From Desulfovulcanus ferrireducens (GTDB lineage Bacteria; Desulfobacterota; Desulfovibrionia; Desulfovibrionales; Desulfonatronovibrionaceae): a stretch of DNA of 64,000 nt. Positions within the stretch are counted from its first letter, which is position 1. Each line of letters begins with the position of its first letter. This document shows positions 9,778-64,000 of the stretch, in pieces. The stretch spans positions 1-64,000 of the forward strand of contig NZ_JAGUQP010000011.1 in assembly GCF_018704065.1 (NCBI RefSeq), read 5' to 3'. Made by a program: the position numbers and the translations under genes. The notes beneath the pieces are model-generated. The model made no database searches. It worked only from the letters and a program-made list of their open reading frames with translations, and was not told where the DNA came from.

Positions 9778-10293
9778 TTTTCCAATTTTTTGCCATTCAA
9801 CCCTTCATGGGGAAGCGTATTTAATTTGCTGCTTCGCCAAGAATTTTTATTTAGCCGCAAACATACACAGACAAACGCAGAGTTTAACAAGGAGGGGTCA
9901 GCATTGCAGCATTTCAATTTCTATATTAAATGTCGAGTCAAGAAGTGTTTATGTAGGGTCCAAGGCTATCTCATCTAATTTTAAAGAATAATCTCGCGCA
10001 AAGACGCCAAGGAAAAGACATTTTTGTTCGGCTTGAGTTCCAAGCCGAACAAAAACCCCTCGGCCCGAAGGGCCGAAAGGCTTTGATCTGGGTTTAGTCT
10101 AAAGCCAGATCAAAAAACTTTGCACCTTGGCGGCTTGGCGCGAGGTTTTCTCTTAAACCTGATGTCGGAGCACTATTAACAGGCGCTTCTTTGATGGGCA
10201 AGTCTTAAACAGCAACAAAACTCCATCCTGAACCCAACAAACTCAAAATGCCGGGATTGCAATTGTCCTTCAATAAGTTTATGGGCAAAGGCT
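9778..10293. other. Intergenic region between divergent operons with repeats
   Basis: This gap separates the leftward larB operon from the rightward sigma-54 activator, so promoters for both should lie here; I could not assign either convincingly. It holds a family A element (9964-10150) and, at about 9853-9885, a decayed end resembling the family B terminal repeat (AGCCGCAAAC...CACAGACAAACGCAGA). Small frames crossing it are artefacts of the repeats. Confidence 0.55.
9964..10150 (+). repeat. Family A palindromic element, copy A1
   Basis: Ends form a long imperfect inverted repeat (CTCGCGCAAAGACGCC at the left, GGCGGCTTGGCGCGAG at the right). Inside are three hairpins in series: a perfect 15-bp stem with loop AGTTC at 10021-10055, CGGCCC-GAA-GGGCCG at 10061-10075, and a ten-pair stem starting TTTGATCTGG at 10082-10114. 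Relative to copy A2 at 21413, the third stem differs by a paired change (GATCTGG/CCAGATC against GAGCTGG/CCAGCTC), so structure rather than bare sequence is conserved. The outer right arm seen in A2 is missing here. Confidence 0.85.
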
Positions 10294-13823: not shown

Positions 13824-16454
13824 CTAAGCTCCCAGCAAAGAGTAAATTTTATCCAGGTCTAAATTCTGGCGGACGATATCTGCCAGGCGTTCTAAAGCAG
13901 GCTCCAGATCATAGTGGCTCTGGATGTGTTTTAGAGGGGAGAGTCCTTTTTGGGCTCTTACTTTGTCCAGCCAAAACCGCCGAAATGCATCACTGTCAAA
14001 GATGCCATGAACATAAGTGCCCCAGATACTTCTGTTTTTTAAACCATAACCTAATGGTTTCTGCTCGTTACTAACGATGACAGGATTCAGATTGGCTAGG
14101 GGGTGGCTTTTTCCGTGATGGATTTCATAGCCTTTGATGGGGATTTTATTTTCGTACCATACGCCTTGGACCTGAGAGAGGGTTTTTTCCGGTGACAGGA
14201 CAGTTATAATTGGAAGTAAGTTTAGTCCAGGTATTTCAGCTTTGTCAGACTCAATCTTGTGCGGATCTTTAATCTTTGTCCCCAGCATTTGAAAACCACC
14301 GCAAATACCGACCAGCTCTTTTTTCTCATCAAGAGTGAAATCTAAAATAGCCTGCACAAACCCCTTGTCCTGTAAGAATTTAAGATCAGCAAAGACATTT
14401 TTGCTGCCCGGCAGGATAAGGGCGTCCATCTGTTTTATATCTGTTGCAGATTTTAAAATGATTACCTCTGAGTCAGGTTCAAGGTAGAGGGGATCAATAT
14501 CATTGAAATTAGAAATGTGTGGAAGGTCCACGACTCCTATGACTACTTTGTCTGCACACTTTGTCCTGCCTTGTCGGGAAAGGCTGAGCTTATCTTTGAA
14601 GCTTACGGAATCTTCCTCCGGCAGACCCAGCCTGTCAATATAAGGGACAATGCCCAGGAAAGGCTTGCCTGTTGATAGTGAGCAAAAGTCCAATGCGTGC
14701 TTCAGCAAGTCTTTTTGCCCGCGAAATTTATTGATGACCAGGCCACAGATTAAATCCTGCTCCCATTTGTCAAGAAGGGCCAGAGTGCCCACAAAAGAGG
14801 CAAATATACCTCCTCTGTCTATATCTCCGACAAGCAAGACCTTGGCCTCAGCGTATCTGGCCATACACATGTTTACTATGTCGTGGCTTTTTAAGTTAAT
14901 TTCAGCCGGGCTTCCCGCTCCTTCTAAAATTATAATTTCAAATTCGCTGGCCAGTTGGTCAAATGCGTCTTGTGCTGCCCGGAAGGCTTTTGGCTTGAAC
15001 CGGATATATTCGTTGACATTCATATTGCCTACAGGCTTGCCCATGACAATAATCTGGGACCCTGTTTCAGAATTGGGTTTGAGCAAAACAGGGTTCATGC
15101 GCACATCCGGGTCCAGGCGACAGGCCTGTGCCTGGACTACCTGGGCTCTGCCCATCTCCAACCCTTCCCGGGTGACAAACGAATTCAGAGACATGTTTTG
15201 GGCCTTAAACGGGGCAACTTTAAAGCCATCCTGAAGAAAAATTCGTCCCAGGGCAGCAGCAAGGATACTTTTGCCGGCATTGGAACTGGTCCCCTGGACC
15301 ATGATCGCTTTTGCTTTTCTTTTTTGGTGACGGATCCGTTGTGAAGTCGGGAAGTTGGGAAGGTTGGAGGTTGGGAAGATGAGAGCATGAGAAGATGAGA
15401 GATCAGATAAGATAGATTTCAAGCTTTTGACCAGGGCCTGGTTTTGTTCAGGCGTTTTTATTGCCAGGCGGAAAAATTTAGAGCCCAACCCCTTAAAGTT
15501 GGTACATGTGCGGATAAGAATTTTTTGAGGCAGTAATTTTTCGGCCAGGTAGGTAGAGGCAAGGTTCTTTTTATTGAGTTTGACCAGGATAAAATTGGCT
15601 TGGCCAGGGAAAATCGTCAGTTCTGGGAGCTCTTTTAGATCCGAGATAAATTTTTCCTTGAATTCGGGCAGAGTTTTATGGGTCTGGCGAACGAAGTTTT
15701 GGTCATTCAAGGCACCAGCAGCAATTTTTTGGGCCAGGAAGTTAACCGACCAGGGTGGAAGAAAATTTTCTATTTTTCGGGCAAGTGGTTTGCGGGCGAT
15801 GGCCAGTCCAACCCTTAGACCTGGTAGCGCAAAAAATTTGGTCAAAGAGATAATCGTGACTACATTGGGCAGGGAGAATAAAAACATGCGCGAAATGGAC
15901 GGCGCAAAATCTGCAAAGGCCTCGTCGACAACAAAAAAACTTTGGGGATGATTTTGGGCCAGGCTGGCTAGCTTTTGGGCAGGGATTGTCTGCCCTGTGG
16001 GATTGTTGGGTTGCCCAAGGAAGACCAGGGCCGGCTCTTTTAGAGATTGTTCCAGCTCCTGCAAATCCAGTTGAAAATCATTTTCCTCTTTCAGGTAGAT
16101 ATATTTTATCCCTAGTCCATATATATCTGCTATACGTTCATATTCTACGTAAGAAGGTACCGGGATAACGGCCTGGCGTACAGGGAATAATCTGGGTACC
16201 ACAGAGAGTATCTCTGATGCCCCATTACCTACAACAATTTCTTCTGGGCTAACCCCGTAAAAACTAGCTGCGCTTTGTTTGAGTTCCAGGTTGTGGGGGT
16301 CTGGATAATGGGCGATTTGCCATAAATTTTCAGCCATCATCTGGCCAACCCATTCTGGCGGGCCAAGAGGATTGATGCTGGCGGAAAAGTCTAAAATTTC
16401 CTGAGGCGAACAACCAATCCGCTTGGCTGCCGCCCAGATATTTCCTCCGTGCAT
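13824..16454 (-). CDS. cobD-cobQ: Fused CobD (threonine-P decarboxylase) and CobQ (cobyric acid synthase)
   Basis: 876 residues, two cobalamin enzymes in one frame. Residues 1 to about 355 are a PLP aminotransferase-fold L-threonine-O-3-phosphate decarboxylase: MHGGN start, LGQPNNPTG, and PLP lysine in SLTKFFALPGLRVG; it would supply aminopropanol phosphate. Residues from about 385 are CobQ, which amidates cobyrinate side chains: P-loop VQGTSSNAGKS, glutaminase nucleophile in CGGFQMLG, and the histidine in GTYVHGIFD. The junction (about 355-385, reading SSHALIFPTSNLPNFPTSQR) is encoded by a family D repeat tract. It converges on rsmB. I see no cobalamin riboswitch upstream. Either half could also be read as a separate gene if CobQ restarts at the Met near 15300. 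Confidence 0.88.
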   Translation of the reverse strand: MHGGNIWAAAKRIGCSPQEILDFSASINPLGPPEWVGQMMAENLWQIAHYPDPHNLELKQSAASFYGVSPEEIVVGNGASEILSVVPRLFPVRQAVIPVPSYVEYERIADIYGLGIKYIYLKEENDFQLDLQELEQSLKEPALVFLGQPNNPTGQTIPAQKLASLAQNHPQSFFVVDEAFADFAPSISRMFLFSLPNVVTIISLTKFFALPGLRVGLAIARKPLARKIENFLPPWSVNFLAQKIAAGALNDQNFVRQTHKTLPEFKEKFISDLKELPELTIFPGQANFILVKLNKKNLASTYLAEKLLPQKILIRTCTNFKGLGSKFFRLAIKTPEQNQALVKSLKSILSDLSSSHALIFPTSNLPNFPTSQRIRHQKRKAKAIMVQGTSSNAGKSILAAALGRIFLQDGFKVAPFKAQNMSLNSFVTREGLEMGRAQVVQAQACRLDPDVRMNPVLLKPNSETGSQIIVMGKPVGNMNVNEYIRFKPKAFRAAQDAFDQLASEFEIIILEGAGSPAEINLKSHDIVNMCMARYAEAKVLLVGDIDRGGIFASFVGTLALLDKWEQDLICGLVINKFRGQKDLLKHALDFCSLSTGKPFLGIVPYIDRLGLPEEDSVSFKDKLSLSRQGRTKCADKVVIGVVDLPHISNFNDIDPLYLEPDSEVIILKSATDIKQMDALILPGSKNVFADLKFLQDKGFVQAILDFTLDEKKELVGICGGFQMLGTKIKDPHKIESDKAEIPGLNLLPIITVLSPEKTLSQVQGVWYENKIPIKGYEIHHGKSHPLANLNPVIVSNEQKPLGYGLKNRSIWGTYVHGIFDSDAFRRFWLDKVRAQKGLSPLKHIQSHYDLEPALERLADIVRQNLDLDKIYSLLGA
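15340..15402. repeat. Family D tract forming the CobD-CobQ linker
   Basis: Plus-strand words GAAGTCGGGAAGTTGGGAAG, GGTTGGAGG and GAAGATGAGAG repeat across the exact boundary of the two enzyme domains. On the coding strand they give Pro/Ser/Asn-rich residues absent from either family, so the linker is repeat-derived. Confidence 0.8.
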
Positions 16455-16622: not shown

Positions 16623-16635
16623 ATCTAATGCACTT

Positions 16636-16890
16636 TTTAACCGCAGACCCACGCAGACTAACGCAGACATTCTTGTTCGGCAGACGTTGCCGAACAAAAA
16701 CCTGACGGCCTTTCAGGCCGTGGTTAAGGTTAGTAACTATTAGTTTCCAGGTGTGCTGATAGCCGTATCCGATACGACAAGAATCGAAACTCAAATATCC
16801 TTCCCGGCCTTTCAGGCCGGGACAGCAGCGCGACCGGCAAGTCGCAGGACGCGCTTGTCTGCGTCCATCTGCGTGGGTCTGCGGTTAAAA
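16636..16890 (-). repeat. Family B palindromic element, copy B1 (inverted)
   Basis: About 255 bases bounded by inverted repeats that begin TTTTAACCGCAGAC and continue with tandem ACGCAGAC words. Between them are the four family hairpins, here in reverse order: TTGTTCGGCA...TGCCGAACAA first, then the GGCCTTTCAGGCC stems, then the GACTT-loop hairpin. All other B copies in the window run in the opposite orientation. Confidence 0.9.
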
Positions 16891-19022: not shown

Positions 19023-19663
19023 TAAAATTTTAAAATTTTTTCTTGATGAGAAAAATTGCCAAAGTTATTAGGTGGTTATGTAATTGGGAGTTTGAGTAGA
19101 CAAGCAAGGAACGTGGGAGGAATGGCGTTAAAAAGAATAGTTTTCAAGCTCCGGGAAATAACGATTTTTCGCAAAATTTTGACAAAACCTAAAGTTTTGG
19201 GCAGCTAGTTTGGTTGGGTACTAAATAATAACGAGATGATGCACAAGGAAAAGTTTTGTTTTTGTAAAAAATTATTCATTCTTACAGGGTCTGTGGCCAA
19301 ACCCTTTTACTGATTAGGTTCTTTCAGTCTTGGTTTCTTTCATGCTGGTGCAAAGGCTTGGACATGTTCTCAAAACTTGCTTGCGGCCAGAGTATAATGG
19401 GATACTTTGGGTTATCGAATATTCTTTTAATGAAGGATAGTCTATGTAAAATTTCGCAAAATGTTTAACCCATTCCCCCGATGCTCTGTTTTTTCCGCAA
19501 GCTTCATCAAGATGGGTTACCCAAGCCATTTGCAATGCACTTCACAAACCAAGACTTTCAATTAGGGGGTAGGATGTGGGTTGGCCACAGGCTCTATAGT
19601 CAAGAGTCTTTTTGACCCACCTTTAGTCCTCGGCACTAAGAAATTAAGGCAGGAGATATAATT
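19023..19663. other. Non-coding region between groES and serS
   Basis: 641 bases. The left part (19023-19283) shows no gene. The right part is occupied by a MITE-like element (19284-19597). The serS ribosome site AGGAG lies at about 19650. A 73-codon minus-strand frame inside the element has no recognisable homology and is probably non-coding. Confidence 0.5.
19284..19597. mobile_element. MITE-like element, family C (copy C1)
   Basis: About 314 bases with imperfect terminal inverted repeats of about 75-80 bases. The left end has CTGTGGCCAAACCC and GTCTTGGTTT; the right end, read on the minus strand, has CTGTGGCCAACCC and GTCTTGGTTT, each followed by a TGCAAA-GGCTTGG block. There is no transposase. 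One arm recurs at 16574-16622 and at the window's left edge. I call it a miniature inverted-repeat element on structure only. Confidence 0.65.
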
Positions 19664-21412: not shown

Positions 21413-21655
21413 GGGCCATCTCATCTAACTTTAAAGAATAATTTCGCGCCAAGCCGCAAAGACGCCAAGGAAAAGAGATTTTTTGTTCAGCTTGAGTTCC
21501 AAGCCGAACAAAAGCCCCTCGGCCCGAAGGGCCGAAAGCCCTTGAGCTGGGTTTAATCTAAAGCCAGCTCAAAAAAACTTTGCGTCTTTGCGGCATGGCG
21601 CGAGGTAGTATTTTTTAACATATTGAAAGTATAGCACAGTTAGATGAGATAGCCC
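21413..21655 (+). repeat. Family A palindromic element, copy A2 (complete)
   Basis: Outer arms GGGCCATCTCATCTAACT and AGTTAGATGAGATAGCCC are inverted, enclosing a second inverted pair (TTCGCGCCAAGCCGCAAAG, CTTTGCGGCATGGCGCGAG). Inside are three hairpins as in A1: TTGTTCAGCTTG with loop AGTTC, CGGCCCGAAGGGCCG, and TTGAGCTGG...CCAGCTCAA. The whole could fold as one long stem with a three-hairpin head. Confidence 0.88.
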
Positions 21656-28290: not shown

Positions 28291-28792
28291 CTACTTTGAT
28301 TAAATAATTAGTTTTTTATTTAAAAGAACAATCTTTCTCGGTTTTAACCGCAGACGCACGCAGACTGACGCAGACAAGTGCGCCCGGCGACTTGCCGGTC
28401 GCACTGCTGTCCCGGCCTTTCAGGCCGGGAAGGATAAAGAATATTAGAGTTTCGGCTCTTATTGTATCGGATACGGCTATCATCATACCCGGAAAGTAAT
28501 TGTTATTAAGCTTAACCACGGCCTGAAAGGCCGTCAGGTTTTTGTTCGGCAAAGTCTGCCGAACAAGAATTTCTGCGTGAGTCTGCGTGGGTCTGCGGTT
28601 AAAAATAAAATTTGGATTAAGGTTTAATAGGGTAAATGGGTAGATGAGAGAAAGTGTAGAAGGGGGTAGATGGCTATAGAGGTAAGTAAAGTGGCTTCTG
28701 CCCATTCTCCTTTCTACTCATCCTCTCATTCACTATAAAAATGATTGTTTCTGCGGTAAAATAAAGAAAATAAGAAAAAGGTAGGAAAAATA
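28291..28792. other. Intergenic region occupied by a family B element
   Basis: Besides element B2 (28342-28604), it holds a following GGATTAAGGTTTAA tail and simple GGGTAGATG-type repeats to about 28735. No gene is supported; a minus-strand frame here is made of repeat sequence. Confidence 0.55.
28342..28604 (+). repeat. Family B palindromic element, copy B2
   Basis: 263 bases. Terminal inverted repeats start TTTTAACCGCAGACGC. Hairpins in order: CCGGC-GACTT-GCCGG (28384-28398), CCCGGCC-TTTCA-GGCCGGG (28411-28429), ACGGCC-TGAAA-GGCCGT (28518-28534) and TTGTTCGGC-7-GCCGAACAA (28542-28566). The centre carries the conserved TATCGGATACGGCTATCAT. This is the reference copy for the family. Confidence 0.92.
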
Positions 28793-29896: not shown

Positions 29897-30150
29897 TTTT
29901 AACCGCAGACTCATGCAGACGGAGGCAGACTATCGCTGCCAGCGACTTGCTGACAGCTCTGCTGTCCAGTCTTTTTAGGCAGAGAAGGATTTTTGAATTT
30001 CGACTCTGATCATATCGGATACGACTATCATCACGCCCGGAAAGCGATAGTTATTGATTCTAACCGGCCTTTTAGGCCGTCAGGTTTTTGTTCGGCAAAG
30101 TCTGCCGAACAAAAATGTCAGCGTTAGTCTGCGTGGGTCTGCGGTTAAAA
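29897..30150 (+). repeat. Family B palindromic element, copy B3
   Basis: 254 bases with the same ends (TTTTAACCGCAGACTCA, GTGGGTCTGCGGTTAAAA) and hairpin order as B2. The middle keeps CATATCGGATACGACTATCA. The left hairpins have drifted (CCAGCGACTTGCTGACA), while the right TTGTTCGGC hairpin is intact. It is followed by the shared GGATTAAGGTTTAAGGG tail. Confidence 0.88.
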
Positions 30151-61823: not shown

Positions 61824-63077
61824 GTGAATAAAGTTGCTTTGATAACAGGAATTACAGGACAAGATGGTGCATATCTTGCGGAGTTTTTGCTTAAAAAAGG
61901 TTATATAGTGCATGGAATAAAGAGAAGGGCGTCACTTTTTAATACTGACAGAGTTGATGCTCTTTATAAAGATCCGCATGAGGAGGATGTAAATTTTTTC
62001 TTACACTATGGGGACATGACTGATTCTACAAATTTAATAAGAATAATTCAGGAAGTGCAGCCTGACGAGATTTACAATCTGGCGGCTCAATCTCATGTAA
62101 AAGTTTCATTTGAAACTCCAGAATATACAGCAAATGCGGATGCTCTTGGAACCTTGAGGATATTAGAGGCAATTAGAATATTAAAAATGGAAGATAAGAC
62201 GAAGTTTTATCAGGCTTCTACCTCCGAACTTTATGGAAAAGTTCAGGAGATACCGCAAAATGAAAAGACGATGTTTTACCCAAGGAGCCCTTATGCCGCG
62301 GCTAAACTTTATGCTTATTGGATAACGGTAAATTATAGGGAAGCATATAATATGTTTGCCAGCAACGGGATTCTTTTTAACCACGAATCTCCTATTAGAG
62401 GAGAGACTTTTGTAACAAGGAAGATTACGCGGGCTACTGCAAGGATCAGGTTTGGGCTGCAGAAAAAGCTATATCTTGGAAACTTGGATGCAAAGAGAGA
62501 CTGGGGACATGCGAAAGATTATGTTGAGGGGATGTGGCTTATCGTGCAGCAGGATGAGCCTGATGATTTTGTTTTGGCAACCGGGGAGGCCCACTCTGTA
62601 AGAGAGTTTGTAGAATTGGCTTTCAGGGAAGTTGGGATAGAGATTGAGTGGATAGGTAAAGGAGTCCAGGAAAAGGGGGTTGTTCGGGGGATAAGAAGAT
62701 TGGAAGATGAGAAGTTAGGAAGATGGGAAGATGAGAGGGCTGGAAAAGAAGAAGATAAATTCTCGCGCCAAGACGCCAAGACGCCAAGGGGGGAAGAGGA
62801 GAAGCTACGAAGATGCGAAGTTAGGAAGACGGGAGATTGGAAAGGGATAAAAGAAGGGGATGTAGTGATAGAGATTGATCCGAGGTATTTTAGGCCGACA
62901 GAAGTAGATTTTCTTCTTGGTGATGCAACAAAGGCAAGAGAAAAGCTTGGCTGGAAACCAAAACATACTTTTGAGGAACTTGTTAGGGACATGGTTAGTG
63001 CTGATCTTGAGCTGGCTAAAAGAGAGTTGTATCTTAAAAATGGTGGTTATAAGTGTCGTAATAACTGTGAGGAGTGA
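61824..63077 (+). CDS. gmd: GDP-mannose 4,6-dehydratase with repeat-derived insertion
   Basis: 417 residues from GTG 61824, preceded by GGGGGAG (TTG 61812 in frame). [20 protein letters not shown] is the NADP site, [19 protein letters not shown] holds the catalytic Thr/Ser-Glu and [10 protein letters not shown] the Tyr-Lys. It makes GDP-4-keto-6-deoxymannose, precursor of rhamnose, fucose or perosamine on GDP. Between EKGVV and [20 protein letters not shown] lies an extra segment of roughly 50 residues ([39 protein letters not shown]) encoded by family D and family A repeat sequence. No fcl or other follow-up gene is in the window. Confidence 0.93.
62691..62848. repeat. Composite D-A-D repeat insertion inside gmd
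   Basis: GGAAGATGAGAAGTTAGG-type words (62701-62755) are followed by a family A end, CTCGCGCCAAGACGCCAAG (62762-62780), then more D words (62790-62845). The length preserves the frame. This is one repeat family nested in or joined to another inside a coding gene. Confidence 0.82.
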
Positions 63078-63102: not shown

Positions 63103-63323
63103 GTTAACCGCAGACTCACGCAGACGGACGCAGACGAGCCTTGCCAGCGACTTGCTGGCAAGGCTGGCGTACTGGCCCTTCGGGCCATGAATGAAATTTT
63201 TCCTGAGTGCAAAATGTTTGATGCAAATATAAGTATAATATCCTTGGCCGAAGCCAACAGTTTTTGTTTGGCAGGCCTTGCCGAAGAAAATGTCTGTGTA
63301 AGTCACGTGTGTCTGTGGGTAAA
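63103..63323 (+). repeat. Family B palindromic element, copy B5
   Basis: Left end GTTAACCGCAGACTCACGC, then an 11-bp stem GCCTTGCCAGC-GACTT-GCTGGCAAGGC (63138-63164), the TGGCCCTTCGGGCCA hairpin, and TTGTTTGGCAGG near the right end. The right terminal repeat is eroded (GTGTGTCTGTGGGTAAA). Its right end lies 5 bases before the start of the GxxExxY gene. Confidence 0.88.
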
Positions 63324-63328
63324 TAAAA

Positions 63329-63709
63329 ATGGATATTAATCAATTGACTTACGCAATCAACGGGGCCATTTTTGAAGTAAATAGAGTGCTTGGGCCTGGA
63401 TTTTTGGAGAAGGTTTATGAGAAGGCGCTGTTTATAGAGTTGAAGGAGCGTGGTTTTTACGTAATAGCACAAGCGCCGATTGGTATAAATTACAAGAGCC
63501 AATGCGTTGGCGAGTATATAGCGGATTTGTTGGTTGAAGATTGCGTGATTATAGAACTTAAGACTGTTGAGAGATTGGAAAAGATTCACGAAGCTCAACT
63601 TTTGAATTATTTGAAGGCAACAGGTCTGAAAGTCGGGTTATTGGTAAATTTTAAGTCTCCCAAGGTTGAGATAAAGCGTTTTGTTTTAGATCTGACCGAA
63701 AACCAGTGA
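63329..63709 (+). CDS. GxxExxY-family protein (PD-(D/E)XK fold)
   Basis: 126 residues. GFLEKVYEKALFIEL contains the family's GxxExxY motif (about 24-30). YIADLLVEDCVIIELKTVE has the D...ExK arrangement of PD-(D/E)XK nucleases, so a nuclease-like fold is expected, though no activity is established for the family to my knowledge. It is full length and intact. It lies between two direct copies of family B (B5 ends 5 bases before, B6 begins 3 bases after), and its leader is formed by the B5 end. No ribosome site of standard form is evident. Confidence 0.88.
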   Translation: MDINQLTYAINGAIFEVNRVLGPGFLEKVYEKALFIELKERGFYVIAQAPIGINYKSQCVGEYIADLLVEDCVIIELKTVERLEKIHEAQLLNYLKATGLKVGLLVNFKSPKVEIKRFVLDLTENQ

Positions 63710-63712
63710 TTA

Positions 63713-63960
63713 TTTTACCGCAGACTTACGCAGACAGACGCAGACAAGCCCTGCCAGCAGGGCTAAACTTCCAGCCTTTCAGGCCGGATGAGATATTTGA
63801 AGTTCGATTTTTATCGTATCAGATATGGTATTAGCTCAGGTTGGAAGTGATGCGTGTAAGTAAAGAGTCCTCTCGGCCCTTTTGGGCCGTCAGGTTTTTG
63901 TTCGGCAAGGTCTGCCGAACAAGAATGTCTGCGTTAGTCTGCGTGCGTCTGCGGTTGAAA
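63713..63960 (+). repeat. Family B palindromic element, copy B6
   Basis: 248 bases with ends TTTTACCGCAGACTTACGC and GTGCGTCTGCGGTTGAAA. The first hairpin is shortened (GCCCTGCCAGCAGGGC), CCAGCCTTTCAGGCCGG follows, CGGCCCTTTTGGGCCG replaces the CGGCCTGAAAGGCCG stem of B2 (paired change), and the TTGTTCGGC hairpin is intact. A GGATTA-rich tail follows to the window end. Confidence 0.9.
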
Positions 63961-64000
63961 ATATAAGGAGGATTACTGATTATGGATTACGGGGTAAGGA

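Follow-up and report, generated by a model that had tools for sequence, protein, structure and literature searches.

The window analyzed here, a stretch of 64,000 nucleotides from Desulfovulcanus ferrireducens (contig NZ_JAGUQP010000011.1), ends in a gene cluster in which a small gene of the GxxExxY family lies between two copies of a palindrome that is dispersed through the 2.59-Mb genome. Does the gene belong to the repeats that surround it, and do the two travel together? The answer we favor, at a probability of about 0.68, is that the gene forms the coding portion of a small mobile unit whose nuclease recognizes its own word, a heptamer repeated at the ends of the unit, and that the dispersed palindromes, called B elements below, are gene-less derivatives of such units.

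A GxxExxY Gene Between Two Dispersed Palindromes

The gene is an intact ORF of 126 aa (63329–63709, forward strand) that matches TIGR04256 (9.2e-45, 151.8 bits against a cut-off of 35) and PF13366, PDDEXK_3 (1.3e-42, 145.3 bits against a cut-off of 22), and no other Pfam family above cut-off. Five bases before it ends B5 (63103–63323, forward strand), an imperfect palindrome with a left arm AACCGCAGACtcACGCAGACggACGCAGAC (63106–63136), hairpins, and a degenerate right arm ending in GTGTGTCTGTGGGTAA; three bases after it begins B6 (63713–63961, forward strand), an intact palindromic element that has internal hairpins and an arm of three words at each end. Both copies are in direct orientation, and the end of B5 forms the gene's leader. 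This tight bracketing had been reported in a preliminary description of the DNA, and its coordinates hold. The neighbors are a GDP-mannose dehydratase gene on one side and a four-helix-bundle gene on the other. Given how rare the element is, we estimate the chance of any gene being this tightly bracketed on both sides at <1e-4.

As a single strand, B6 folds into one closed multibranched structure (folding z −10.5), and B5 folds less well (z −6.2). Strong folding, and a gene leader made of the end of B5, would suit a regulatory or RNA-level role, in which the repeats would be RNA processing sites or terminators, and a host gene for the nuclease would lie nearby by chance; this explanation is, however, largely contradicted and in our judgment very improbable, given the presence and absence of elements at orthologous sites, the discrete units in unrelated places (both described below), and an Rfam search of the repeats that returned nothing credible.

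A B element is an imperfect palindrome of ~250 bp composed of AACCGCAGACnnACGCAGACnnACGCAGAC, hairpins, and an inverted arm, with three CGCAGAC words at its ends. A search for the end motif that allowed three mismatches gives 26 occurrences genome-wide and no control matches, and the ~240-bp copies are mostly 80%–90% identical. Two of these dispersed palindromes are those that flank the GxxExxY gene; gene-less copies elsewhere in the window lie at 16635–16890 on the forward strand and at 28342–28604 and 29897–30150 on the reverse strand. The genome has only two GxxExxY genes, the intact one and a truncated one (C11:72628) that lies between inverted words differing from those of B. Because the arms and hairpins of B elements are common to gene-bearing units of the same clade, B elements are probably units without the gene. 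In the only congener (G001), a contig that stops 58 bases from the site of the copy B1 has no B element there, which is suggestive of an empty site.

Inverted Words Around GxxExxY Genes

We compared the flanks of 176 distinct GxxExxY genes for which both were at hand, collected by family search within the phylum and by protein similarity across many phyla; each upstream flank was compared with the reverse complement of its downstream counterpart, and the best match gave the score. The median score is 17.5, versus 9.0 for 284 control ORFs from the same loci (p = 6e-51), and it falls to 9.0 when flanks are swapped between GxxExxY genes. A score of at least 14 is reached by 125 of the 176 genes; a recognizable inverted flank is absent in the other 51. 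The arms, which lie a median 40 nt upstream of the start and 20 nt downstream of the stop, are mostly heptamers of the form CRCRRAN at 8–11-bp spacing, usually in three copies. The signal lies between flanks, as self-inverted repeats inside a single flank hardly separate GxxExxY genes from controls. Direct-repeat bracketing was rejected as a general rule: 11% of genes exceed the control 99th percentile for direct repeats, versus 36% for inverted ones.

Of 41 genes closely related to that of the window, 16 have word>gene<word without a second palindrome, the layout seen most often, and a minority (L086, L176, L177, and a few others) have a whole palindrome at one side or at both. The direct B–gene–B unit of the preliminary description is real at the window, which is a local composite of a unit between two whole B copies, but the usual unit has words, not two whole B copies, at its sides. 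Whole palindromes flank the gene on both sides at the window, in L086, L176, and L177, and in L035/L049. Such layouts are the expected trace of copying into a pre-existing palindrome, as would occur if the palindromes arose independently and a homing-like selfish nuclease gene cut existing ones and was copied in via repair. We consider homing improbable, in view of the prevalence of the simpler layout and of the units in unrelated places, which carry no palindrome past their own ends.

Words Follow Proteins

Word similarity correlates with protein identity (Mantel r 0.42, 0/1,000 permutations), and pairs from different phyla alone give r 0.20 (0/1,000, null maximum 0.192). On the protein tree, word base 7 changes nine times, against a mean of 53 and a minimum of 45 in 300 shuffles, and word bases 2, 4, and 5 likewise track the tree. 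CRCAGAC words stand on both sides of 25 of the 41 genes whose products are at least 60% identical to the window protein, compared with 0/135 of the others and 2/284 controls. Across 297 genomes, the triple word is found in seven of eight with a close protein and in 15 of 289 without (p = 3e-8). The pairing is far commoner than chance. We assign word recognition to the GxxExxY protein because word and protein co-vary across phyla. The suggestion of a nuclease action on the repeats gains from this co-evolution as far as recognition is concerned; its other part, that the nuclease mobilizes them, we infer.

A Predicted Cas4/RecB-Like Nuclease

A sequence search found no solved relative of the GxxExxY protein. 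The AlphaFold model of the 126-aa protein (pLDDT 93.8) has as its top PDB match 4ic1, titled SSO0001 (E 3.5e-4, TM 0.6), which we take to be a Cas4 protein; further matches after it are LHK-Exo (lambda-exonuclease-like), AddAB, and MGME1. The GFLEKVY and D...ExK motifs noted earlier are conserved in GxxExxY proteins, the latter as D66 and E76-x-K78, together with E27 and Q90-xxx-Y94. RecB/Cas4 families have the motif order E...D...ExK...QxxxY, which these residues fit. The window protein is accordingly predicted, from its modeled fold and motifs, to be a Cas4/RecB-like PD-(D/E)XK nuclease.

Three residues of helix 3–21, T7, N11, and N18, are spaced so as to lie on one face. T7 pairs with G at word base 5 in 63 of 65 cases, N18 with C at word base 7 in 19 of 19, and N11 with C in 17 of 18, correlations that are not significant after tree correction (for T7, four of six independent pairs agree and none oppose). 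A residue code linking helix and word is suggested by these pairings.

The protein matches no known transposase family in the TIGR04256, Pfam, and PDB comparisons. PADLOC and PHROGs gave weak matches only, which do not mark it as a defense or phage gene; no GxxExxY protein was found in phages (50,697 phages; IMG/VR), and the eight plasmid matches are distant, all of them on non-mobilizable plasmids.

Units at Different Sites

Gene-plus-repeat units of ~0.45 kb occur in unrelated surroundings and, like insertion sequences, have terminal inverted repeats around a single ORF and are found at different sites. In three pairs (L190/L194, L233/L195, and L101/L102), the sequences are 82%–90% alike only from −35 to −21 before the start to +29 to +37 after the stop; outside these limits the surroundings differ, with no palindrome beyond the units' own ends. 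Other sets (L193/L200/L198 and L076/L078) reflect vertical inheritance.

Presence and absence between species are seen at two orthologous sites. At one intergenic site, G154 has a CGCAAAG unit with its gene, and its sister species G117 has a gene-less CGCAGAT palindrome between flanks that match those of G154 at 96% and 90%. At another, G189 has a CGCAGAG gene-bearing unit and the G117 site has elements with other words. Neither G117 site is a clean empty site, since both hold elements with other words, so that the empty sites looked for are found as regards the gene and not as regards word elements in general. The proposal that gene and element travel together is supported by these sister-species sites without the gene and by the enriched pairing. 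An alignment of G117 with G154 over ~155 kb contains 14 clean indels of 50–1,200 bp, most of which are word-ended elements. A CACAGAG element in G117 (C1:367740) that is absent in G154 is flanked by 9-bp CAAGGCCAT repeats, but this target-site duplication is uncertain because the spot also holds a small inversion. No clear duplication accompanies a CGCAGAC/T element in G154 (C1:169204). A consistent length of target-site duplication is wanting in the two insertions compared.

It may be asked whether the gene moves anything. As a passenger or regulator, it would encode a nuclease that only trims, represses, or maintains palindromes moved by another enzyme. DNA-end processing, not integration, is usual for RecB/Cas4-like folds, a strand-transfer domain is missing from the GxxExxY protein, B copies are more numerous than the gene, and the polymorphism extends to word elements of other types. 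Set against this, the cross-phyla co-variation ties recognition to the GxxExxY protein, and the repeated unit includes the gene itself; we therefore think a mere passenger unlikely.

On the mobile-unit reading, each unit would comprise three heptamers phased at ~10 bp (here CGCAGAC), the PD-(D/E)XK nuclease gene, and an inverted copy of that array. The protein would bind its own heptamers, with one heptamer to each helical turn and perhaps by way of its N-terminal helix, and would cut at or near the element ends; host repair or recombination could then copy or move the unit, as well as the B elements, which have the same ends but no gene. The sequences themselves show the bracketing, the co-variation of word and protein, the discrete units in unrelated places, and their presence or absence between species; the binding, the cutting, and the route of movement we infer, and we know of no way for a lone 126-aa nuclease to integrate DNA.

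Comparison with Known Systems

We found no description of repeats around GxxExxY genes in the open-access literature, and a paper that mentions the name gives no function for the protein. Provisionally, GxxExxY units with matching words are a probable mobile-element family that we have not found described.

REP/REPIN repeats and RAYT usually comprise one gene per genome with palindromic repeats flanking it and many gene-less copies dispersed, the RAYT protein being an HUH/Y1 transposase that diversifies together with its repeats (PMC2817692, PMC3116915). The likeness is that dispersed palindromes share their ends with those beside the GxxExxY gene and that repeat and protein diversify together; the difference is that the protein here is a predicted Cas4/RecB-like PD-(D/E)XK protein, HUH/Y1 is absent, and the ends are phased heptamers, not tagged REP hairpins. 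The intervening sequences of 23S rRNA are ~0.4 kb long, with one small ORF (the S23 four-helix bundle) and inverted ends, and that of Coxiella has tandem heptamers directly before the ORF, reported upstream only (PMC4990558). They resemble GxxExxY units in having a small ORF and inverted ends, but S23 is unrelated to GxxExxY, and they are located in rRNA, whereas the window unit lies between protein genes.

MITEs and autonomous insertion sequences offer a further likeness, in that the ends of a gene-bearing unit recur on short copies without the gene; the GxxExxY unit differs in having neither a DDE, HUH, serine, or tyrosine recombinase nor a consistent target-site duplication. With Cas4, RecB, and lambda exonuclease the protein shares its fold and the motif order, but it is half their size, free-standing, and has its own repeats on both sides.

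Many environmental bacterial genomes contain dispersed words such as ACCACAGAGnCACAGAG or ACCGCGAATGAACGCGAAT. These are now tied to a specific protein family, the pairing of word and protein becomes predictable, and recognition can be tested with a single small protein and a DNA duplex. Should the nuclease alone drive movement, it would represent an enzyme class new to mobile DNA, and GxxExxY units would be among the smallest autonomous elements. A broader proposal, to which we give slightly less than even odds, is that these units form a phylum-crossing class of self-contained ~0.45-kb elements whose sole protein is a Cas4/RecB-like nuclease with a simple residue–base heptamer code, that four-helix-bundle genes independently share the layout, and that word-bracketed small genes are general and overlooked.

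Other Word-Bracketed Genes and Repeats

Directly after B6 (window 63983 onward), the four-helix-bundle gene (TIGR02436, C11:64038–64361; L336) lies between inverted words, GGATTACGGGGTAAG, that are its own. Of 28 such genes in relatives, 20 show this bracketing by words of their own, scoring at least 14 in a comparison made without a matched control set. In L270 (4488–7053), CRCAGAC palindromes stand in a tandem row around a gene 69% identical to that of the window; word elements do multiply locally.

Word arrays also occur within genes. At 62670–62850 in the window, an array of 8-bp words (GGAAGATGAGAAG...) and a CGCCAAG array lie in frame within the GDP-mannose 4,6-dehydratase gene, whose Pfam match is kept in two stretches. 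A similar array at 15326–15410 is in frame inside an 876-aa ORF that we presume to be a CobD-type aminotransferase fused to CobQ, the array lying near their junction.

Another dispersed palindrome, of ~300 bp with ends CTGTGGCC...GGCCACAG, lies at 19283–19601 and recurs about ten times elsewhere in the genome. It is absent at the orthologous site of the congener G001, and a relative of it interrupts the truncated GxxExxY gene. Two structured repeats that are 93% identical, at 10021–10117 and 21480–21576, adjoin inverted GCGCCAAG/CGCAAAG words.
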